From positions 3,162,001 through 3,226,000 of the forward strand of contig NC_017243.1 in the NCBI RefSeq assembly GCF_000223215.1: a stretch of DNA of 64,000 bases. Direction: 5' to 3'. This stretch comes from Brachyspira intermedia PWS/A. Its GTDB lineage: Bacteria > Spirochaetota > Brachyspiria > Brachyspirales > Brachyspiraceae. The translations under genes were made by a program, and so were the position numbers. Position 1 is the stretch's first letter; each line of letters starts with the position of its first letter. This document shows, in pieces, positions 2,858 through 60,949 of this stretch. The notes under the pieces are model-generated. The model was not told where the DNA came from and ran no database searches. It was given only the letters and a program-made list of their open reading frames with translations.

Positions 2858-3056
2858 ACCGCACGCTAAACAAATTCATAATTATGATAATTTTACAATT
2901 TTAATCTTATTAAATAATAAGATAAAATTAACCGTGCGTTGAAAATATCCTCACTCTAATAAAATCTTGGGCGGGTGCTGTAAATTATAATCTAAGTTTT
3001 CAAATCTTAATGAAGTTATAATAAAAAAATAAGTTATCAAATCTTAAAGGGCGGGG
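2858..3056 (+). repeat. modular palindromic repeat, arm A-B-C (copy 1)
   Basis: Module A is the inverted pair CGCACG (2860) ... CGTGCG (ending 2938), outer span 79 bp. Module B (CTTGGGCGGGTGCTGTAA) starts at 2966, exactly 28 bp after A ends. Module C (AAAGGGCGGGG) starts at 3046, 80 bp after B starts. The same order and spacing recur at many other places in the window. This arm lies upstream of the dehydratase gene; a C-like motif and a reversed B follow that gene at 4809-5020, so the gene is bracketed. Function unknown. Confidence 0.8.
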
Positions 3057-3329
3057 TTCTAAATAAATTTCAAAAACATAGAACAGCTTATAAATAAAAT
3101 TGAAAATATTTTTTAACGTTTTTACCATAAAATACAAATAATTAAAAAAATTATCTTATATGTATAAAATATAATAAACTATAAAACTATTATATTAATA
3201 TACTATTGAAAATTTATTTTAAAATAAAACCTTTCTATAAAATTAACAATATATAATAAAATCCTTGTATAATAATAAAAAAAATATATACTATAATTCT
3301 TATTTAACATGTATTTTAGGTTTGAAGCA

Positions 3330-4808: not shown

Positions 4809-5020
4809 AAATAAATGGCGGGGTATGTTAATAAAATTTTGAACTTATTTTTATCAACTTTTCCCGGACTTCGTCAAAGTTGCAAAAGAACATAATTAAT
4901 ACATAAGTCATATAAAATAATTTTAATATTCTAGTTTTATTTAAATAAAAAAAATATATCATATCATTTTTATTTTTTATTCTCTTATTGCTTGACTAGA
5001 AATGTTAACGCCCACCCAAG
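4809..5020. repeat. modular repeat, degraded right arm (C-like motif, hairpin, reversed B)
   Basis: A C-like motif (AATGGCGGGGTATG) sits near 4814, followed by a hairpin around 4845-4890 (TCAACTTTT ... AAAGTTG) with a loop also found near 29930 and 36215. The reversed B motif CGCCCACCCAAG ends at 5020. No A module follows; the next sequence is the 3' end of the oxidoreductase gene. With the arm at 2858-3056 it brackets the dehydratase gene. Confidence 0.65.
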
Positions 5021-5031
5021 TTTTAATTAGA

Positions 5032-16826: not shown

Positions 16827-16831
16827 CTTAC

Positions 16832-17244
16832 CGCACGTTAAGTCAAATTTAAAATATAAGTTTATCTCAAACTCAAATTTCATTATATTAAAAAAATTAT
16901 TATACGTGCGTTGAAAAGATTTTAAATCTAATAAACGCTAGGGCGGGTGCTTTTATGACAAATTAAAATTTTAAATATAAAAAAACTATAACAACAAATA
17001 AAATCAAAAAATATAAAGGGCGGGCAAGTGTAATTAAATTTTAAAATTCATTTTCATACCCCACCCACTAGACTTTTTAATTTATTTTGAAATTTTAATT
17101 TTTTATTTTTTTATAATATAACTAGAATTTTTTAGCTACCCACCCAAGTTATAATGCATTCACCGCACGCAGAATATTATTATATTATTAAGTATATTAA
17201 TTAATTATAATTATCATTATATATAAAAGTTTACTTACCGTGCG
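16832..17244. repeat. complete modular palindromic repeat A-B-C-C'-B'-A'
   Basis: Left A spans 16832-16910 (79 bp). B (CTAGGGCGGGTGC) starts at 16938, 28 bp after A ends. C (AAAGGGCGGG) is at 17015. The reversed C (ACCCCACCCACT) is near 17058 and the reversed B (CTACCCACCCAAG) ends at 17148. The right A spans 17164-17244 (81 bp). The right A is a near-identical reverse complement of the A at 35882-35962. Five bases separate the smc stop codon from the left A core. No reading frame is present. Confidence 0.85.
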
Positions 17245-17308
17245 TTATGGAAATTTAAAAATTTAAATAATTTTGCTTTTATAGATAAATATAATATAAT
17301 TATAATAT

Positions 17309-22961: not shown

Positions 22962-23046
22962 CTCGTTTATTTTTTATTATTGCTAATAAAAATTATTTTA
23001 CAAGTAAACTTGCCAAAGGCAAATAATTTTTATGTTTAGATTTTTA

Positions 23047-24360
<1,314 letters not shown>

Positions 24361-28027: not shown

Positions 28028-29593
28028 ATGAATAATGAAGAATTAGATTTACAATTTCACAAATTATATGAAGAAGGAAATCATAAAGGAATTATTGAAT
28101 TAATACTTTCCTTACCTGAAGAACAATTAAATGATGATATTAAAGGTCAGCTTGCCGTAGCATATAATAATACTGGAGAATTTGACTTAGCAATAGAAAT
28201 ATTAAATTCTTTATCCGAAGAAACCAAAAGCCATCATACTTGGTTTTATAAAATTGCCTATGCATATTCAGGAAAATCTGATATGAGCAATGCCAATTTA
28301 AATATAGACAGAGCATTATATACATTAGAAATGAACAAATCTTTAATAAGCAATGAAGAATATGATTATTACAGCAATTTATATAATAATTTAAAAGAGT
28401 ATATACAAGGCGGAAGTCTGCATTATGAAGCTAATTCAGTTAATATTGATGATCCTGATTCTATCATAAAAGATATATCATCTATTTTATCAAATGATAT
28501 AGATAATGAGATAATAGAAGGAAGCATTGTCATAAAAAAATGGAATATATTTATAAATGCTTATCCTGATACTATAACAGATAAAAGTGCCGTTATAAAT
28601 TATTATATATCCAGTCCTGATTGGGACAGAGATATATTTGAATGCTGTGCTAGTGCAGGAAAAGATGCCAATACTTCTGTAGGGCTTTCAAATGGTAGTT
28701 TTATATTTGGTATAATGACAGGCATAAAAGCTATGAATGAAAACAGAATACTTGATGAAGTTGAAACTGAATTTGCCGGCAAAAAACATAAATGGAAAGT
28801 TTATACAAGTAATTTAGTTAATATGGGTGGAGATAATGGAAAGCCTAAAAATGTAAATATTTATTGGGATATGTTCAAAGATGATATTTTAAAAAGAATA
28901 GGAAATCAAAAAATATGCTACATTAAAATATATGGAGCTAAGGCAGGAAATGATTATTCTATAGGAGAGCTTAGAATCAATGATGTTAATATACCAGAGC
29001 TTGCCGACAAAATGAATGAATATGTTAAAACTTGGAATGAAACAGATTTTTCATCAGACAAGCAGTTTTTCTTTTTACTACAAGATAATGAAACTTATAC
29101 TCCTTATCCATTCAGCAATGATGAGATTTTAAAATTTATTCGAGAATATTCAAATATAGTTTTAAATTTAAAAGAGTCTGAAGAATCATACGATAAATTA
29201 GGAAATTTAGCAGAAGAGCTTACAAAGGATTATAGTCTTGCAAGTGATTTATTTTTATTCTTACCAGAAATATGTGCTGATAATGAATTTTATAATGAGC
29301 TTCATTCCGGAGAAATTGTTAATTTCAATTTTCAATCATCTCAAAAAAATTGTTCTGTATACAAAACCCAGCTTTATACATATCATTTAATCAATAATTA
29401 TCTCTTTGAACTTTTTAGAGAAGGGGCATTTAACGGCAAGGAAAATGAAATATATTTAAGATTTATAAATATGAGTGCAGGATACAATATATATTCACAG
29501 ATTAAAGCTGACTATGAAAAGAAAAATCAAAAGTTAGAAAATCTTGAAGTTAATTTAGGTTTTAATGTAGATGATGATTATGAAATTAGATAA
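28028..29593 (+). CDS. 521-residue protein with N-terminal TPR-like region
   Basis: The first about 130 residues look like TPR helices (GQLAVAYNNTGEFDLAIEIL). The rest is an acidic, aromatic-rich region (for example ISSPDWDRDIFECCASAGKD and FFFLLQDNETYTPYPF) that I cannot place in a named family. No signal peptide, so probably cytosolic. AAGGA lies 8 bp before the ATG. The stop codon (29591-29593) directly abuts repeat module A, with no spacer at all. Confidence 0.72.
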   Translation: MNNEELDLQFHKLYEEGNHKGIIELILSLPEEQLNDDIKGQLAVAYNNTGEFDLAIEILNSLSEETKSHHTWFYKIAYAYSGKSDMSNANLNIDRALYTLEMNKSLISNEEYDYYSNLYNNLKEYIQGGSLHYEANSVNIDDPDSIIKDISSILSNDIDNEIIEGSIVIKKWNIFINAYPDTITDKSAVINYYISSPDWDRDIFECCASAGKDANTSVGLSNGSFIFGIMTGIKAMNENRILDEVETEFAGKKHKWKVYTSNLVNMGGDNGKPKNVNIYWDMFKDDILKRIGNQKICYIKIYGAKAGNDYSIGELRINDVNIPELADKMNEYVKTWNETDFSSDKQFFFLLQDNETYTPYPFSNDEILKFIREYSNIVLNLKESEESYDKLGNLAEELTKDYSLASDLFLFLPEICADNEFYNELHSGEIVNFNFQSSQKNCSVYKTQLYTYHLINNYLFELFREGAFNGKENEIYLRFINMSAGYNIYSQIKADYEKKNQKLENLEVNLGFNVDDDYEIR

Positions 29594-29963
29594 CGCACGG
29601 TAAGTAAATCAATAAATATAATAAAAGCTATATTTCAAATAAAATAATATTTTTTGATTTTGTTTATCGTGCGGTAAATAGATTTTTAAATTAAAAAATA
29701 CTTGGGCGGGCATTAACATTTCTTTTTAAACAACAAAGAAACAAAAAACAAAAATAACCGAATAAGGCAATAAAATATAAAGGGCGGGAAATTAGAAAAG
29801 ATTCATTCTAAAACCAAGCTATTTAAATTTTTTATCTTTATTAAAATTCTAATTTTATAATAAAATATAAAAGTTTAGAGGGAAGTGTATATAAATAAAA
29901 AATTTTTAACTTATGTGCTTTATCAACTTTTCCTGGACTTCGTCAAAGTTGATAAAGCACATA
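29594..29963 (+). repeat. modular repeat arm A-B-C with a perfect 19-bp hairpin
   Basis: A spans 29594-29673 (80 bp). B (CTTGGGCGGG) starts at 29701, 28 bp after A ends. C (AAAGGGCGGG) is at 29779. Downstream, 29912-29930 and 29945-29963 form a perfect 19-bp stem with a 14-nt loop. The stretch 29701-30040 is nearly duplicated at 35990-36322. The matching right arm is at 30459-30702, so the small gene at 30007 is bracketed. Confidence 0.82.
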
Positions 29964-30006
29964 AAATTTATTTAAGAATAATTACAAATATAATCAATCT
30001 TTGCCG

Positions 30007-30270
30007 CTATTTAATATCCCAGCCTTTATCTTCACAGAATTTTTTTGCTATATCATTTCCTTCTTTAGCCATACCAATAATTGAATTTTTTATCATTTCT
30101 TTAGACCGTTCATTACCTGAATTGTAGTATTTATCCAAATCATTATATGCTTCTTCAACATATTTTTTAAATTCTTTTGAATCTTTGCTAAATATTTTGG
30201 GTAATATAAAATATCTAGTAAAAATGGATATCACTAATAAAAATGCAAACAAAAATGTTAATCCTGACAT
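30007..30270 (-). CDS. small membrane-anchored protein inside a repeat cassette
   Basis: This 87-residue protein has an N-terminal membrane helix (residues 3-22) followed by a charged helical domain with NSIIGMAKEGNDIAKKFC, ending EDKGWDIK. The helical tail resembles a single Sel1/TPR-like unit. AGGAG lies 7 bp before the ATG at 30270, preferred over the upstream TTG. A fragment of its 3' end is found at 36293-36322, so this locus has been copied. Confidence 0.6.
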   Translation of the reverse strand: MSGLTFLFAFLLVISIFTRYFILPKIFSKDSKEFKKYVEEAYNDLDKYYNSGNERSKEMIKNSIIGMAKEGNDIAKKFCEDKGWDIK

Positions 30271-30458
30271 ATACAACTCCTATATAAATATTATAAACAA
30301 TATTTTAATTTTTGTATATTAATTTATATAAAAGTATACAAATTTTAAAATTAATATGTATTTTGTTTTGTATATTATAATTCATAAATAAATCATCATT
30401 GTTATTAATATTTTCAAAAAATATAAAATAAAAGTAACAGAATAAAGCAATAAAACAT

Positions 30459-30702
30459 AAAGGGCAGGAAATTAGAAAAGATTAAAAAATAAATTTTATT
30501 CTAACTCCCCACCCTCTAAATTTAGAATCTTAACTGTTATTTTTATGATATTTTATTTTGTTATTTTGCTCTGTTATTTTAACACCCACCCAAGCTGTTA
30601 TTATATTGAAAATTTTTATTAACGCACGGTAAATGTATTTTTTAATATAGTTTAAATTATTATTTGAAATAAGTTTATATTTTAAATTTCACACACCGTG
30701 CG
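30459..30702 (-). repeat. modular repeat right arm C-C'-B'-A'
   Basis: A C-like motif (AAAGGGCAGG) at 30459, reversed C (CTCCCCACCCTC) near 30505, reversed B (CACCCACCCAAG) ending at 30594, then A at 30623-30702 (80 bp), 29 bp further. About 200 bp are nearly the same as 35690-35890. Closes the bracket opened at 29594. Confidence 0.78.
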
Positions 30703-30720
30703 TGATAGTTTAAATTATAA

Positions 30721-30913: not shown

Positions 30914-32341
<1,428 letters not shown>

Positions 32342-32379
32342 TTATATCTCCTATATTATTTAAACTTTTATTTAAATAA

Positions 32380-34335
<1,956 letters not shown>

Positions 34336-34389
34336 TTATAATAATTTTTTTATAATAATGAAGGTTTGGCCAACTTAATGTCACCATCC
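34336..34389 (-). promoter_or_regulatory. RAT-like antiterminator site upstream of the PTS gene
   Basis: On the minus strand GGATGGTGAC followed by GGCCAAACCTT matches the layout of BglG/LicT-family RNA targets (GGAT.GTTAC ... GGCAAAACCT). It is followed by an A+T hairpin (ATTATTATAA / TTATTATAAT) just before the GGAGG ribosome site. Binding of the antiterminator would control expression of the transporter. Confidence 0.6.
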
Positions 34390-34414
34390 AAATATATTAA
34401 ATCCTATAAATATT

Positions 34415-35260
34415 TTATTCTCTCCTTTTTGCTTTCTCTATATGTATAGTTAAATATAATTTCTCCTCATCGCTTATATCATAAGAATAAGAAAGCAAAA
34501 TATATTCTGCTATTTTTAAAGTGCATTCATAAGATTCTTTATATTTCATCTTTACCACAGATAACAAATCTTCATCTTCTTTATCATTATAAATATTTTT
34601 CTGAAACAATCTCAAAGCAAAAAATTTTAAATGAGTTATAAATCTGTTATAATACAAAGATTCTTCATTGAACTTTATATTAAAATGCCTCTCTACTATC
34701 ATAACTATTTTTTGTATAAGTTTTGTAATCTCGCCCATTTCTTTTATGCATCCGTAATCATCATTAGTTTGAGCATTAACTATATGAAGTGCTATAAAAC
34801 CTGCCTCATCATCTGAAAGTCTTATATTAAAATCTTCTTCTATAATATCCAAAGCTTTTAAACCTATATTATATTCATCTTTATAAAATTTCTTTATATC
34901 CCAAAGCATCATATTTTTTATATTTACACCGTCTTTAGTTCTAACTATTGCCATATATATATGATCCATTAAAGTGATATACAAAAAATCATTTAAACTT
35001 CTTTCTGCTTTAGTTTTTGCATATGCAATAATTTTTTCTGTAGTATTTAAATATTCTGCAGGTATATCTTTTAATAATTGCTGAAGTTTGCTGTTATTAT
35101 CTGAATTTTCTAATAAGAACGTTTTATCAATTTTCTCTTCGTCTATACTATCACCAACTTTTTTACCAAAGGCTATACCTCTGCCCATAACAATTTTTTC
35201 TGTTTTACCGTTTTCAAAAACAACAACAACATTATTATTAAGTATCTTTCCTACTTTCAT
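34415..35260 (-). CDS. bglG: BglG/LicT-family transcriptional antiterminator
   Basis: The 281-residue protein starts with the RNA-binding domain (MKVGKILNNNVVVVFE and GRGIAFGKKVGD), then two PTS regulation domains: PRD1 has MDHIYMAIVR and ALHIVNAQ; PRD2 has HLKFFALRLF and LTIHIEKAK, with the conserved His residues. It is phosphorylated by the PTS and, when active, stops termination at RAT sites. Two such sites are visible in the operon. AGGAG precedes the ATG. Confidence 0.95.
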   Translation of the reverse strand: MKVGKILNNNVVVVFENGKTEKIVMGRGIAFGKKVGDSIDEEKIDKTFLLENSDNNSKLQQLLKDIPAEYLNTTEKIIAYAKTKAERSLNDFLYITLMDHIYMAIVRTKDGVNIKNMMLWDIKKFYKDEYNIGLKALDIIEEDFNIRLSDDEAGFIALHIVNAQTNDDYGCIKEMGEITKLIQKIVMIVERHFNIKFNEESLYYNRFITHLKFFALRLFQKNIYNDKEDEDLLSVVKMKYKESYECTLKIAEYILLSYSYDISDEEKLYLTIHIEKAKRRE

Positions 35261-35374: not shown

Positions 35375-35531
35375 ACTATCCAATATGATGCTTTTATCAT
35401 AAACCATATAACATTAATTGTCAAGGATTTTTTTATATTAAGTTTTATAAAGCTATAAATACTTTTAAAATTTAAACTTTAAACTGCAATTTTTCCAACA
35501 CAGTTTATCTAAATTTGTTATGCTTATATAC

Positions 35532-35962
35532 CGCACGTTGAATAAAATTAATAATATAACAAAATTTAAAATTATAATCTAATCATATAATTAAATTTCA
35601 TTAATCGTGCGTTAAATAGATTTTAAATTTAAAAATCGCTTGGGCGGGCGTTAACATTTCTTTTAAAACAACAAAAGAAATAAAAAACAAAAATAACATA
35701 ATAAAGCAAAAAAATATAAAGGGCGGGAAATTAGAAAAGATTTAAAAACAAATTTTATTCTAACTCCCCACCCTCTAAATTTATAATCTTAACTGTTATT
35801 TTTATTATATTTTATTTTATTATTTTGCTATGTTATTTTAATACCCACCCTAGAGTTTATTAAATTGTGAATTTTTATTAACGCACGGTAAGTAAAATTT
35901 TATATATAATGATAATTGTAATTGATAAATATACTTAATAATATAATAATATTCTGCGTGCG
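35532..35962. repeat. complete modular palindromic repeat A-B-C-C'-B'-A'
   Basis: Left A 35532-35611 (80 bp); B (CTTGGGCGGGCG) at 35639, 28 bp after A; C (AAAGGGCGGG) at 35718; reversed C (CTCCCCACCCTC) near 35764; reversed B (ACCCACCCTAG) ending at 35853; right A 35882-35962 (81 bp). Same layout as 16832-17244, and its right A is the reverse complement of that element's right A with few differences. Confidence 0.85.
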
Positions 35963-35989
35963 GTGAATGCATTATAAATTTAAATAAAA

Positions 35990-36260
35990 CTTGGGTTGGC
36001 GTTAACATTTCTTTTTAAACAACAAAGAAACAAAAAACAAAAATAACAGAATAAGGCAATAAAATATAAAGGGCGGGAAATTAGAAAATATTCATTCTAA
36101 AACACAGCCATTTAAATTTTTTATCTTTATTAAAATTCTAATTTTAGAATAAAATATAAAAGTTTATAGGTAAGTGTATATAAATAAAAAATTTTTAATT
36201 TATTTTTTATCAACTTTTCCCGGACTTCGTCAAAGTTGCAAAAACACATAAAATTATTTA
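35990..36260 (+). repeat. extra B-C arm with hairpin, duplicate of the 29.7 kb region
   Basis: B (CTTGGGTTGG) starts 28 bp after the preceding A, C is at 36068, and a hairpin (TCAACTTTT ... AAAGTTG) lies near 36210. It follows 29701-29980 closely base by base. The preceding A therefore has a B on both sides, so A is used as a shared boundary. Confidence 0.75.
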
Positions 36261-36292
36261 AGAATAGTTACAAATATAATCAATCTTTTCCG

Positions 36293-36322
36293 CTATTTAA
36301 TATTCCAGCCTTTATCTTCATT
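36293..36322 (-). pseudogene. fragment of the small membrane-protein gene's 3' end
   Basis: It encodes EDKGWNIK and a stop, matching the end (EDKGWDIK) of the gene at 30007. It comes with the duplicated repeat arm and is not expressed as a gene. It touches the end of the next gene. Confidence 0.65.
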
Positions 36323-40357: not shown

Positions 40358-40380
40358 TTGAGTTCCTATTATTACTAATA

Positions 40381-40720
40381 AAAATTGTTCGCCAATAAAC
40401 CTCTAGCAAATAAATTTGCTAGAGGCTCACAATTTTTATAAATTATATTTTATTATTACTATGCCAACCATAAGTAGTATTACCTACAGCACAAAAAGTG
40501 ATGACCGACCTAGATTATTACTAATAAAAATTGTTCGCTAATAAAACTCTAACAAATAAATTTTCTAAAGGCTCACAATTTTTATAAACTATATTTTATT
40601 ATTACTATATATATAAAATGATCTGCTTTCATATATTGCTATGCCTCATCGAAAGTGCATACAGCATCACCAATATAAGCCAGCAACTAAAGTTACTGGC
40701 TGCTATGGCTAACTTTTTAT
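40381..40720 (-). repeat. cluster of 5'-leader hairpin repeats
   Basis: Copy nearest the ankyrin gene: outer arms AAAATTGT / ACAATTTT and inner stem CCTCTAGCAAAT / ATTTGCTAGAGG (40400-40425). A decayed tandem copy lies at 40525-40585 with the same flanks but a mispaired stem. A third (AGCCAGCAACT / AGTTACTGGCT) near 40680-40705 matches the stem used at 37833. Nothing else is seen in the gap. Confidence 0.6.
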
Positions 40721-52359: not shown

Positions 52360-52483
52360 ATATTTTCCGCCTTTAAACTTTAAAAGTATAAAAATTCTGC
52401 TTTCTTTATTTTCGGTATAATGAAAAAAGCCTTAATAAATTTTATTCATATATTATGTAAATATTAAAAATTCATCATTAAAA

Positions 52484-52772
52484 CGCACGGTAAATAGGCT
52501 TAAATATATAATTTAAATCACCATTCTCCATAATCATATATTTTTAATCTCATTAACTCGTGCGGTATATTCTGCCCCAATTTTAAAAAAACTTGGGCGG
52601 GTGCTGTAATTTATGATTCAGCTTTAAGCTGTAATTTATGATTCAGCTTTAAAATATAATTAAAACTAAAATTCAAAAAATAGTAACAAAGCATAAAGGG
52701 CGGGGTATGTAAATAAAATTTTAAACTTATTTTTTATTAACTTTTCCCGCAGCAAAAGTTGCAAAAGTGCCA
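52484..52772 (+). repeat. modular repeat arm A-B-C with 25-bp internal duplication
   Basis: A spans 52484-52564 (81 bp). B (CTTGGGCGGGTGCTGTAA) at 52592, 28 bp after A. C (AAAGGGCGGGG) at 52695, 103 bp after B and not 77-80, because a 25-bp segment containing ATTTATGATTCAGC is tandemly doubled. A hairpin (TTAACTTTT ... AAAGTTG) follows at 52735-52772. This A is nearly identical to the A at 54081. It opens the bracket around the lipoprotein gene at 53348. Confidence 0.82.
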
Positions 52773-52891
52773 AAATATATTTTATTTGAAACCTTATCAT
52801 GAAGTAAATATTATATTTACAATAATAATTAATTACCACCCTAAAGGGAGGGCAAATGTAATTAATTTTTAAATTTATAATATTAAAATAA

Positions 52892-52919
52892 TTGACATAA
52901 AATATAAATATTTTATAAT
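52892..52919 (+). promoter_or_regulatory. perfect-consensus sigma70 promoter
   Basis: TTGACA (52892), 16 bp, TATAAT (52914). Both hexamers match consensus exactly. The transcript would begin near 52926 and run through the heptamer repeat and a hairpin to the lipoprotein gene, giving a leader of about 420 nt. Confidence 0.62.
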
Positions 52920-52957
52920 TTTGCGTATGGATAATATATTTTATTTAATATCTAGAG

Positions 52958-53065
52958 AGCAATCAGCAATCAGCAATCAGCAATCAGCAATCAGCAATCA
53001 GCAATCAGCAATCAGCAATCAGCAATCAGCAATCAGCAATCAGCAATCAGCAATCAGCAATCAGC
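52958..53065 (+). repeat. tandem heptamer repeat, 15 copies of AGCAATC
   Basis: Fifteen uninterrupted AGCAATC units fill 52958-53062, followed by a partial AGC. Unit length is not a multiple of three and no reading frame uses it. It lies about 40 bp after a consensus promoter and 285 bp before a lipoprotein gene. The perfect copies suggest recent expansion and variable copy number. Confidence 0.95.
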
Positions 53066-53191
53066 TAATTTAAATTTTTTCAATAATATATTTTCATTAA
53101 TTTTTCATAAAGCAATATCGGCATTGCATAATTTTTTTAATTTTGCTTATAACATTATCAGTATAATTTTAAATATTATAAAGCTAATTAT

Positions 53192-53266
53192 AAAAATTGT
53201 GAGTCTCTGTCAAGTTTACTTGACAAATCTTTTGCCGCAGGCACGCAAAGCGAGCGAACAATTTTT
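53192..53266 (+). repeat. 5'-leader hairpin repeat upstream of lipoprotein
   Basis: Outer arms AAAAATTG / CAATTTTT with flanks GTGAG and GCGAAC; inner stem TGTCAAGT / ACTTGACA (53208-53225). The same flanks in the same orientation precede the ankyrin and SH3 genes, with other stem sequences. The arm before GCGAAC also has GCCGCAGGC. Confidence 0.6.
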
Positions 53267-53347
53267 ATTAGCAATAATAAAAAATAATAATTTAATTCTG
53301 TCAATAAAAAAATTTTATATAAAAACAATTTATAAGGAGTTCTTATT

Positions 53348-53914
53348 ATGAACAAAAAAAGTTTTTTAATTTTAATTCTATGTTTATTATTTATTTTCAG
53401 CTGCAAAAATAATAATACAAACCCTGATAATACAGAGCCGCCTCCTACAAAAACAGACTTTGAGGAAAAAATAGAATCATATCAAAAGGATTTTTCTTTT
53501 GGTTCTACAAATGAATTTATAGAAGATTTATCCATAAATAATCAAACTTCATTTGTTAAAGATACTGCTATTGGACATCATTATATAGGATATGATGGTA
53601 AATCTTTATATACTGGTACAGCTGATAGTAAATACTATGTAAAAACAATTTATTTGGCTGAAGAAGTTACTTGGAATGGTGTAAAATATATTGTAAAAAA
53701 AGAAATACCATTTAACATTGAAGATATTAAAACTTTTCTTTCATCAACTGAACCTGAAAAAGTTACTGTAAATGATTTAACTAAAGTATATGAAAATGCA
53801 AATGACTTTATATATTGCATAAGCTATCCTAAAAACTCTGAAGTTAAAAGATATGCTGTACTAGCTTTTAGAGGTATAAGTGCTTATTTTGGTTTGATAC
53901 CGTCTGAAGCTTAA
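53348..53914 (+). CDS. predicted lipoprotein inside a repeat bracket
   Basis: This 188-residue protein has a signal peptide ending in FIFSC (lipobox) and a Pro/Thr linker (NTEPPPTKTD). The rest is an unrecognised domain (YIGYDGKSLYTGTADSKYYV). AAGGAG precedes the ATG. Its long leader holds a heptamer array and a hairpin. Repeat arms at 52484 and 53958 flank it in opposite orientation. Confidence 0.75.
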   Translation: MNKKSFLILILCLLFIFSCKNNNTNPDNTEPPPTKTDFEEKIESYQKDFSFGSTNEFIEDLSINNQTSFVKDTAIGHHYIGYDGKSLYTGTADSKYYVKTIYLAEEVTWNGVKYIVKKEIPFNIEDIKTFLSSTEPEKVTVNDLTKVYENANDFIYCISYPKNSEVKRYAVLAFRGISAYFGLIPSEA

Positions 53915-53957
53915 TTAAAAATATAATAAATATATAAAGAATTGATAATTCAAAGGG

Positions 53958-54080
53958 TTGGGGATTAATTACATTCCCCGCCCTTTATTTTTTATTGTTT
54001 TATTCTACAATTATAATTTAAATTATTTTTATTATTTAATTAGAAAATAAAACACCCCGCCAAACTTTTATTAATTTTTA
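53958..54080 (-). repeat. modular repeat right arm C'-B'
   Basis: Reversed C (TTCCCCGCCCTTTA) near 53974 and reversed B (CACCCCGCCAAACT) near 54052-54065, leading into the A at 54081. Closes the bracket around the lipoprotein gene. Confidence 0.7.
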
Positions 54081-54506
54081 CGCATGCTAAATAGGCTTAA
54101 ATATATAATCTAAATTAAAATTCTCCATAAGCATATATTTTAAATCTCATTAACTCGTGCGGTATATTCTTCACAATTTTTTAAAAAACTTGGGCGGGTG
54201 CTGTAATTTCTAGTTTAAACAGCAAGTAAATACAAAGCAAAAATAACAATATAAATTAAAAAGTCTAAAGGGCGGGCAAGTGTAAATTAAATTTTAAAAC
54301 TTTATTTACATACCCACCCTTTATTCTTTATAGTATATTTTTCAAATTTTAACTTTAATTATATTAATAACTTGATAAGAAAAAGCACACCCACCCAAAT
54401 GATGCTTAAATTTAAAATCCATTTAACGCACGATTAACGAATTTTAATTATTTAATAAATTTCCATTGATAATGCAGTTATTTTTTTGGGTTTTATTCAC
54501 CGTGCG
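54081..54506. repeat. complete modular palindromic repeat A-B-C-C'-B'-A'
   Basis: Left A 54081-54161 (81 bp, first hexamer CGCATG); B at 54189, 28 bp after A; C at 54267; reversed C (ACCCACCCTTTA) near 54314; reversed B (CACCCACCCAAAT) near 54388-54400; right A 54427-54506 (80 bp). Six bases separate the right A from the stop codon of the TPR gene. Confidence 0.83.
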
Positions 54507-54512
54507 TAAAGT

Positions 54513-55214
54513 TTATTTCAAGCCATATTTATCTTGAATCTCTTTTATATTTTCTCTAGCAATATCATAGTTAGGGTCTAATTCCAAAGCCTTTTTATAA
54601 TCTTTTAAAGCTTCATTGTACTCCTCTAAATTTTCTTTAGATACTCCTCTGTTATTATAAAAAGCTCCATTATTAGGATTTAACTCTATAGCCTTATCAT
54701 AGTCTTTAATAGCTTCTCCATATTTACCTAAAACATCTTTAACAGTCCCTCTATTATAATAAGCATCACTATCATTAGGGTTTAATTCTATTACTTTATT
54801 AAAATCTTTAATAGAGTCTTCATATTTACCTAAAACATTTTTAACAATTCCTCTGTTATTATAAGCATCACTGTAATCAGAGTCTAACTCTATAGCTTTA
54901 TCATAGTCTTTAATAGCTTCTTCATATTCACCTAAATAATCTTTAGCAAGCCCTCTGTTATTATAAGCATAAGTATAATTATGGTCTAACTCTATAGCCA
55001 TATCATAATCTTTAATAGCTTCTTCATATTCACCTAAATCAGCTTTAACACTTCCTCTGTTATAATAAGCAGCACTATAATTAGGGTCTAACTCTATGGC
55101 CTTATTATAATATACTATGGCTTCTTCATATTTTCCTTCAAGACAAAAAATATTTGCATTATCAAAATAATATTTTGAATCCATACTAGAATCATTATCC
55201 TTAACAACTGACAT
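54513..55214 (-). CDS. six-unit TPR protein
   Basis: The 233-residue protein is almost entirely six 34-residue TPR units of the form AYNNRG...LGEYEEAIKDYDKAIELDP, plus a capping helix. The units are very similar, also in DNA, so copy number may change by recombination. No signal peptide; cytosolic scaffold. AGGA lies 7 bp before the ATG at 55214. It lies directly between two A modules (54427-54506 and 55295-55374). Confidence 0.88.
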   Translation of the reverse strand: MSVVKDNDSSMDSKYYFDNANIFCLEGKYEEAIVYYNKAIELDPNYSAAYYNRGSVKADLGEYEEAIKDYDMAIELDHNYTYAYNNRGLAKDYLGEYEEAIKDYDKAIELDSDYSDAYNNRGIVKNVLGKYEDSIKDFNKVIELNPNDSDAYYNRGTVKDVLGKYGEAIKDYDKAIELNPNNGAFYNNRGVSKENLEEYNEALKDYKKALELDPNYDIARENIKEIQDKYGLK

Positions 55215-55294
55215 CAAAATTTCCTAATATAAATTTATTGAAATCATTATAATAGAAAAAAATTTAATACTATAATAATTAGCATAAAATATTA

Positions 55295-55630
55295 CGCACG
55301 GTTAACTAAGCTCTATATATAATAAAGATTAAAATTATAAATCTATCTATATTTTAAATATTATTCTGCGTGCGGTATGTGAATTTTAAATTTAAAAAAC
55401 GCTTGGGTGGGCGTTATAATTAAATGAAAAACTATCAAGAAAAATAAAATAAAAATAACAAAATAAATTTACATACCTAAAGGGCGGGGTATGTAAATAA
55501 AATTTTAAACTTATTTTTTATCAACTTTTCCAGCAGCAAAAGTTGCAAAAGTGCCAAAATATATTTTATTCGAAACCTTATAATGAATTAAAGAACCTAA
55601 AGGGCGGGCAAATGTAATTAATTTTTTTAA
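55295..55630 (+). repeat. modular repeat arm A-B-C plus second C
   Basis: A 55295-55374 (80 bp); B (CTTGGGTGGGCG) at 55402, 28 bp after A; C (AAAGGGCGGGG) at 55479; hairpin (TCAACTTTT ... AAAGTTG) near 55515-55550; second C (AAAGGGCGGG) near 55600. Further on, 55630-55830 has only A+T-rich sequence with the next gene's promoter region. Confidence 0.8.
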
Positions 55631-58649: not shown

Positions 58650-59027
58650 ATGAAACATTGTATTAAAATTCTAAGTCTATCTTTTATATTTTTATTTATT
58701 TTCAGTTGTTCAAACAAAACTAAAATAGCAGGAAGATATGAGGGTGTTTTAAATACAACTCAAAATACTAAACAGCTTATAACCAATAAATGCATAGTGA
58801 TTGTTAATGATGATAATTCTATGAGTATTGATATACAAGGTGAAAACATATATAAAGATAATATTTCAATATCTAAAGAAGAGCTTATAAAAATTGATGA
58901 TTATTCTTATGTAGCTAGTAAAAATTCTAAAAATTATACATTTGTTTTCCATTCTGGATATATGGTATTAACTATAGAAAATACAGATAATACAACAACC
59001 AAAGGCGAACTTTCAAAAATTAGTTAA
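58650..59027 (+). CDS. small predicted lipoprotein
   Basis: This 125-residue protein has a signal peptide ending in FIFSC (lipobox), then IAGRYEGVL, a short beta-rich domain similar in feel to the lipoprotein at 13084. No family assigned. Its TAA stop is one base from the CGCACG core of a repeat. Confidence 0.7.
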   Translation: MKHCIKILSLSFIFLFIFSCSNKTKIAGRYEGVLNTTQNTKQLITNKCIVIVNDDNSMSIDIQGENIYKDNISISKEELIKIDDYSYVASKNSKNYTFVFHSGYMVLTIENTDNTTTKGELSKIS

Positions 59028-59028
59028 C

Positions 59029-59222
59029 CGCACGGTAATATGATTTTTTAATATATGTTTAATTTATAATTCTAATTAAACATATATTTTTAGCTTTATT
59101 TACGTGCGTTATGTACACAATAAATTTAAAATCCGCTTGGGTGGGCAGCAAGAAATTCTAATTAAGCAAATAAGAAAGTAAAAGTTATATTGCAGAGTGA
59201 AACTTTAAATATAAAGGGCGGG
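59029..59222 (+). repeat. modular repeat arm A-B-C
   Basis: A 59029-59108 (80 bp); B (CTTGGGTGGGCAGC) at 59136, 28 bp after A; C (AAAGGGCGGGC) at 59213. The partner arm (reversed C and B) is at 60850-60949, so the VWA gene is bracketed. Confidence 0.8.
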
Positions 59223-59241
59223 CATATGTAATTAAACTCTA

Positions 59242-60849: not shown

Positions 60850-60949
60850 ATTCTAATTCCCCGACCTCTATGCTTTCTGCTTTATTTTGTCATTTTAGTA
60901 TTTATTTTCTTATATGATTTAATAAGAAATTATAGCACCCACCCAAGCT
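60850..60949 (-). repeat. modular repeat right arm C'-B' (no A)
   Basis: Reversed C variant (TTCCCCGACCTC) near 60857 and reversed B (AGCACCCACCCAAGC) at 60936-60949. No A module follows. Orientation is opposite to the arm at 59029. Confidence 0.65.

Follow-up and report, generated by a model that had tools for sequence, protein, structure and literature searches.

A dispersed palindromic repeat family of Brachyspira brackets single genes and probably acts as a substrate for homologous recombination

The 64,000-nt stretch of Brachyspira intermedia PWS/A DNA analyzed here (the window; G000:C2:3162001-3226000 of a genome of 3,304,788 + 3,260 bp) contains several genes that lie between repeat arms, and we found that these arms are members of a dispersed, non-coding palindromic repeat family of the genus Brachyspira. 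We consider it probable (roughly 0.6) that the repeat is recombinogenic and that the brackets are what homologous recombination between direct copies has left behind, rather than the work of a gene-cassette machine. Surface lipoproteins, TPR proteins and sugar operons come and go, or are exchanged, at sites marked by the repeat, and these turnover sites adjoin promoter-region repeats typical of switchable genes. The family thereby provides a specific candidate origin, open to testing, for the large pool of accessory genes that has been reported in Brachyspira (PMC3163572). No description of it was found in the literature searched, Brachyspira genome papers included, and it is apparently undescribed so far.

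Structure, census and placement of the repeat

The repeat consists of short motifs set in a lattice, CGCACG-62-CGTGCG (A), TTGGGYGGG (B) and TAAAGGGYGGG (C), followed by the mirror motifs c and b, with a period of ~345 bp. The A-B-C-c-b unit has two symmetry centres, the first in A and the second between C and c. Motif spacing is tight, with A-B distances of 108–115 and B-C distances of 74–78 in nearly all of ~55 halves. The filler between the motifs has a mean identity of only 57% between distant copies, and the two arms of one copy are just as unmatched (0.55 and 0.53 vs. 0.57), indicating that a long hairpin is not under selection and leading us to reject a long-hairpin or attC-like structure. 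On its own, the C core is predicted to form a strong hairpin with T-rich sequence after it on one strand, and it looks like an intrinsic terminator on that strand, which also carries a weak excess of G-U-compatible differences.

Searching with the pattern TTGGGYGGGYGCTR gave 39 matches in the B. intermedia PWS/A genome and 0 in the reversed control, and a two-motif pattern gave 88 matches (exact B-C halves) vs. 0 in the control. The latter pattern was present in 23 of 26 Brachyspira genomes and had 0 matches in 270 non-Brachyspira Spirochaetota genomes. We mapped 82 repeat blocks in the PWS/A genome (24 ABCcbA, 18 cbABC, the remainder partial or compound) from element regions at BLAST and pattern matches, so that blocks outside these regions may be missed. 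One tandem element with an identical 345-bp period, at G000:C2:24380 and 24725 (L292), was absent from the BLAST census, and the stated copy number is therefore a lower bound. Blastn gave no match for plasmid or phage carriage of the repeat, IMG/VR contained three pattern matches to it, and the only known RNA family matched in the window was tRNA.

Along the chromosome (C2), repeat copy number drops steeply with distance from the GC-skew origin, with block counts per 165-kb step outward of 29, 24, 13, 5, 2, 2, 4, 2, 1 and 0. The origin has been placed at coordinate zero (PMC3163572), with which the position of rpoB at 2.68 Mb on the minus strand is consistent. In 46 of 50 C-centred copies, one arm has C and its partner T as the middle base of GGGYGGG, and no copy has C in both arms; such two-type (C-type/T-type) arms are seen, for example, at 17014, 35717 and 54266. 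This asymmetry follows neither gene strand nor replication direction. A candidate DNA-binding partner of the repeat is suggested by its constant motif spacing, its two-type arms and its concentration near the origin.

The blocks are intergenic and convergent neighbors are over-represented around them (34 of 82 blocks vs. 61 of 333 background gene pairs), and an element lay ≤40 bp from the gene end in 49% of cases for 3′ ends and 3% for 5′ ends. This placement behind stop codons, along with the hairpin core, its T-rich tail and the G-U-compatible excess, is what would be expected of host regulatory or terminator elements (bidirectional at 3′ ends) acting in RNA processing or supercoiling, with brackets reflecting gene density and gene turnover being incidental. 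We judged this explanation unlikely, given that arms within a copy resemble each other no more than arms of unrelated copies do, that repeat polarity showed no association with neighboring gene strand (or with replication direction), that the element is missing at many orthologous junctions, and that near-identical direct pairs and cross-species blocks (see below) would be left unaccounted for.

Bracketed loci in the window and in relatives

An earlier note on this DNA had described a lipoprotein gene between a left A-B-C arm and a right c-b-A arm, similar brackets around a dehydratase gene, a small ORF at 30007 and a VWA gene, and a TPR gene between two A modules. All of these arrangements are present, with the right b of the lipoprotein bracket degenerate and the right arms of the dehydratase and VWA genes degenerate or partial. 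The features of the lipoprotein (focal) locus are as follows:

52482–52567, plus strand: A module of the left arm (CGCACG at 52484, CGTGCG at 52559)
52592–52603, plus strand: B motif of the left arm
52694–52706, plus strand: C motif of the left arm
52842–52854, plus strand: second C motif (GGGAGGG), where the L079 sequence switches from left-copy to right-copy sequence
52958–53065, plus strand: heptanucleotide array (AGCAATC) x15.4 upstream of the lipoprotein gene (20 copies in G004, L262:1792)
53348–53914, plus strand: lipoprotein gene, lipobox IFSC
53975–54164, minus strand: right arm (c at 53975, degenerate b at 54053, A at 54079)
54079–54508, plus strand: intact C-centred palindrome A-B-C-c-b-A
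54513–55217, minus strand: TPR gene, between A modules at 54425–54508 and 55293–55377
55293–55610, plus strand: A-B-C element with an extra C at 55598

The A at 54079 serves twice, closing the right arm of the lipoprotein gene and opening the intact palindrome. Judging from its repeat structure, the (AGCAATC) array is likely a slippage-variable promoter region.

The lipoprotein is absent from the focal site in G007, G022, G025, G005 and G006, and present in the distant G014. At the G022 site (L079), one palindrome and the TPR gene are kept while the lipoprotein is missing, and the sequence combines, as a mosaic, parts of the left and right repeat copies of the window. The sister genome G007 (a 3.04-Mb chromosome, with most genes at 90–98% protein identity to those of PWS/A) has a single ABCcb with neither the lipoprotein nor the TPR gene, the latter being present in G022 and G014. 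Between EPSPS and g55833 there are no genes and one period in G007, two in G005 and four in G006, the number of 345-bp periods at one site thus varying from one to four. In G004, the focal slot holds the same leader, (AGCAATC)20 and signal peptide, then an unrelated mature lipoprotein, and then a shared 3′ region; the left limit of this allele swap falls inside the signal peptide and outside any arm.

G014 shares the arm-lipoprotein-arm-TPR block, 52523–55516, whose limits lie at ~52523 (mid A) and ~55516 (near the C centre of the element at 55293). Within the block, the lipoprotein is 91% and the TPR gene 87–90% identical, and visual comparison puts the non-coding left arm at ~98% identity across ~300 bp, its BLAST score of 87.7% resulting from a 25-bp duplication. 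Comparison genes were 78–83% (three), 86% (der-plsY) and 90% (m5996) identical, so that the shared block does not stand out against all of them equally. The left neighbor gene differs in G014, and the der-plsY region on the right is shared. We read the block as putatively transferred DNA with its ends within repeats, the alternative being vertical inheritance with loss elsewhere. A broader proposal would make the palindromes a dispersed, integrase-free gene-exchange system, in which the centres (A or C|c) break, the halves act as portable homology arms, gene blocks with half-palindrome ends cross between distant Brachyspira species (52523–55516 being one such unit), and the C-type/T-type arm difference serves the exchange; we regard this as conceivable but doubtful.

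Elsewhere in the window, we identified the following:

2858–3057, plus strand: A-B-C element left of the dehydratase gene, not detected at this G007 junction
4811–5021, minus strand: degenerate right arm of the dehydratase gene
16828–17246, plus strand: intact C-centred palindrome, with equal structure at the orthologous G007 site
29592–30006, plus strand: left direct copy of the island bracket (A-B-C, hairpin, locus flank ...CCGCTATTTA), with its A-B-C arm at 29592–29790
30007–30276, minus strand: 89-aa ORF, patchy in distribution (96% in G022, 94% in G021, and 89% and 82% in the distant species G013 and G016, respectively)
30458–30704, minus strand: c-b-A arm between the 30007 ORF and the bgl operon
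30914–35260, minus strand: operon of GH1 beta-glucosidase, PTS EIIBCA and BglG-type antiterminator, in the island and absent from the G007 site
35528–36295, plus strand: right direct copy of the island bracket, an A-B-C-c-b-A-B-C array with hairpin and locus flank
59027–59224, plus strand: A-B-C element left of the VWA gene
60858–60947, minus strand: partial c-b arm right of the VWA gene, with no element at this G007 junction

Another hairpin, CAACTTTTCCCGGACTTCGTCAAAGTTG-like and likewise dispersed, is frequently positioned immediately internal to the C motif (4818–4899, 29887–29968, 36174–36255 and ~52737), and a further dispersed repeat, with ends AAAAATTGTGAG...TTTTTATTAGCAATAATAA, occurs at 22967–23052, 40368–40608 and 53171–53287. 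The 30007–30276 ORF resembles parts of longer ORFs elsewhere, and may have been transferred or be a gene remnant.

The 6.3-kb island at 29.6–36.3 kb, which holds both the 30007 ORF and the operon, is flanked by direct copies that are 92% identical over the 247-nt repeat, and the duplicate includes ~46 bp of locus flank. At the corresponding site, G007 has one A-B-C half in a 344-bp gap, which is left-like on its left and right-like on its right, and in other species the bgl site is occupied by divergent operons or other genes. A second bracketed lipoprotein was found at the L172 site, where the PWS/A genome reads cbA-lipoprotein-cbABC and the two cbA copies are 94% identical over 243 bp. In seven relatives the lipoprotein is missing from this site and one cbABC stays. 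GATGC-type repeats upstream of this second bracketed lipoprotein number ~4 in the PWS/A genome (L172:4850-4880) and ~10 in G005 (L268:1677). The L172-site element is present in eight close relatives and G014, and the convergent genes without the element in G021 (5 bp apart), G017 (15 bp), G018 and G002 are ≤15 bp apart or overlapping. At L155, the difference amounts to exactly one 345-bp period, between A modules.

Sites that lack the gene and retain the repeat, which the earlier note's cassette picture led one to expect, were thus found at three loci: the focal site (G022 and G007), the L172 site and the island. These loci do not share one kind of junction, and the pattern is compatible with homologous recombination. 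Differing gene content within unchanged flanks was likewise found, in the swapped mature lipoprotein of G004 and the divergent operons of the bgl site. The view that all bracketed genes are accessory proved wrong. Besides lipoproteins, TPR and ankyrin proteins, the brackets hold an NAD-dependent DNA ligase, a flagellin, a dicarboxylate symporter, a LUD protein and a terminase. Bracketed genes occur on both strands and do not form a class of cargo. Both the dehydratase and the VWA gene are retained in G007, where the neighbor on the tested side is kept and no element was detected there, and this conservation goes against the cassette picture. The frequency of single-gene brackets exceeds chance, with 17 such brackets in the origin-proximal third vs. 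5.0 ± 2.0 in simulations that kept the orientation preference and the density gradient. The facing ends of 19 brackets were CC in seven, AA in six and mixed in six. Brackets with C facing the gene were weakly enriched (7 of 19 vs. 18% expected, p = 0.04), and with A-facing brackets equally common (6 of 19), we rejected C-facing as a rule.

Recombination between direct copies and comparison with known systems

Among repeat pairs <8 kb apart, filler identity exceeded 0.7 in 19 of 65 direct pairs and in 1 of 74 inverted pairs, giving no support to gene swapping by recombination between inverted arms. At junctions compared between PWS/A and G007, relative orientation was mostly kept, with three flagged as different, and inverted arms showed no recent exchange. 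Element presence at a given site varies within the genus, and neighboring copies are often near-identical direct duplicates. For most near-identical nearby pairs, homology stops at the element edges, and we therefore rejected tandem duplication of gene plus element, although the duplicate at the island extends ~46 bp into locus flank. DNA between direct copies (lipoprotein, TPR gene, 6.3-kb sugar operon) is present or missing by species, with the repeat left behind. Gene-neighbor breaks between PWS/A and G007 were found at 35% of element junctions vs. 15% elsewhere (p = 6e-5) and, with the test restricted to gaps ≥150 bp since longer intergenic gaps confound it, at 35% vs. 20% (p = 0.013), both p values being optimistic because every junction was counted from both sides.

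Near-identity of direct pairs and neighbor breaks both fit homologous recombination, for which a dedicated enzyme is not needed. We propose that direct copies and their flanks would recombine homologously with chromosomal or transduced DNA, moving genes in or out, and that breakage at a palindrome centre may sometimes precede this. New copies might first have arisen by MITE-like transposition by some enzyme or by template switching. This reading comes from comparing static sequences, and the difference at any one locus may be a gain or a loss. Two observations speak against it: the left limit of the G004 allele swap in the signal peptide rather than in an arm, and a lipoprotein relative in G005 that adjoins a single element with no left copy.

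The alternative of a true cassette system, in which the palindrome is an integron-like site recognized by a dedicated recombinase that inserts gene-plus-palindrome units, would account for the empty sites that retain an intact palindrome, for the serial gene-cbABC-gene-cbABC arrays at L174 and L163, and for the limits of the G014-shared block near an A centre on the left and a C centre on the right. Integron cassettes are likewise single genes beside imperfect palindromes, with gene content varying by strain while the palindrome stays. An attC site spans ~57–141 bp and folds as a single strand, whereas the Brachyspira repeat unit measures 345–430 bp and the arms of one copy do not match. A search for integron integrase (TIGR02249) returned nothing above the cut-off in any of the 26 Brachyspira genomes, only weaker, sub-cut-off relatives of the profile, and a survey found Treponema to be the only spirochaete clade with integrons (PMC3607928). 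With no integrase, 82 blocks dispersed over the chromosome, and genes in both orientations with core genes such as DNA ligase and flagellin among them, we rejected an integron. That G007 carries the dehydratase and VWA genes with no such arms also speaks against cassettes, as do junctions that are not alike from locus to locus. Furthermore, flanking copies at one site are far more alike than distant copies, and the island duplicates carry locus-specific flank, which suggests that resident DNA was duplicated rather than a site imported. Overall, we consider a dedicated cassette system highly improbable. Since many bracketed genes are ordinary and fixed, a recombination hot spot describes the repeat better than a true cassette system does; what stands of the cassette idea is gene turnover with the repeat kept, which at a few loci resembles cassette exchange, and what does not is its extension to a general rule with dedicated machinery.

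The repeat could also be a MITE, that is, a non-autonomous transposon mobilized in trans, with genes at times captured between two copies in the manner of a composite transposon. Like bacterial MITEs, it is non-coding and dispersed, has inverted ends, and is present or absent in relatives; at the L172 site, nine relatives have the element between the convergent genes and four do not, and the element occupies what in relatives is a 5–15 bp gap between stop codons. No parent transposase was found among the bracketed genes examined (Pfam), and no clear target-site duplication was seen at the one clean empty site, relatives being too diverged for a base-exact call. The ~40% filler divergence between copies and the many sites shared across species give no sign of recent hopping, and we think it improbable that MITE mobility explains the brackets.

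Similarities to the REP, BIME and REPIN sequences of Enterobacteria and Pseudomonas include dispersed intergenic palindromes near 3′ gene ends, alternating orientation and variable-copy arrays, the latter represented here by A-B-C-c-b repeats of one to four periods. REPs are 20–40 bp and tied to RAYT transposases (PMC3733652, PMC2817692, PMC3116915). The Brachyspira repeat differs from this pattern of a 20–40 bp unit, usually in >100 copies, in that its motifs, short and GC-rich, sit at constant distances within AT-rich filler, and in its ~345-bp unit, 82 mapped blocks and 88 exact B-C halves. Y1_Tnp (PF01797) was found in 0 of 26 Brachyspira genomes and in 5 of 14 controls, and we rejected a REP/RAYT system for want of the transposase in the genus. 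In its overall behavior, the repeat resembles BIME or MITE families.

For homologous recombination between direct copies, incoming DNA could have been supplied by VSH-1, a gene transfer agent that carries random pieces of DNA, 7.5 kb in size, in Brachyspira (PMC3163572). At 1.4, 1.5 and 6.3 kb, the segments that come and go here would fit this size, making VSH-1 a possible carrier of DNA to repeat sites.
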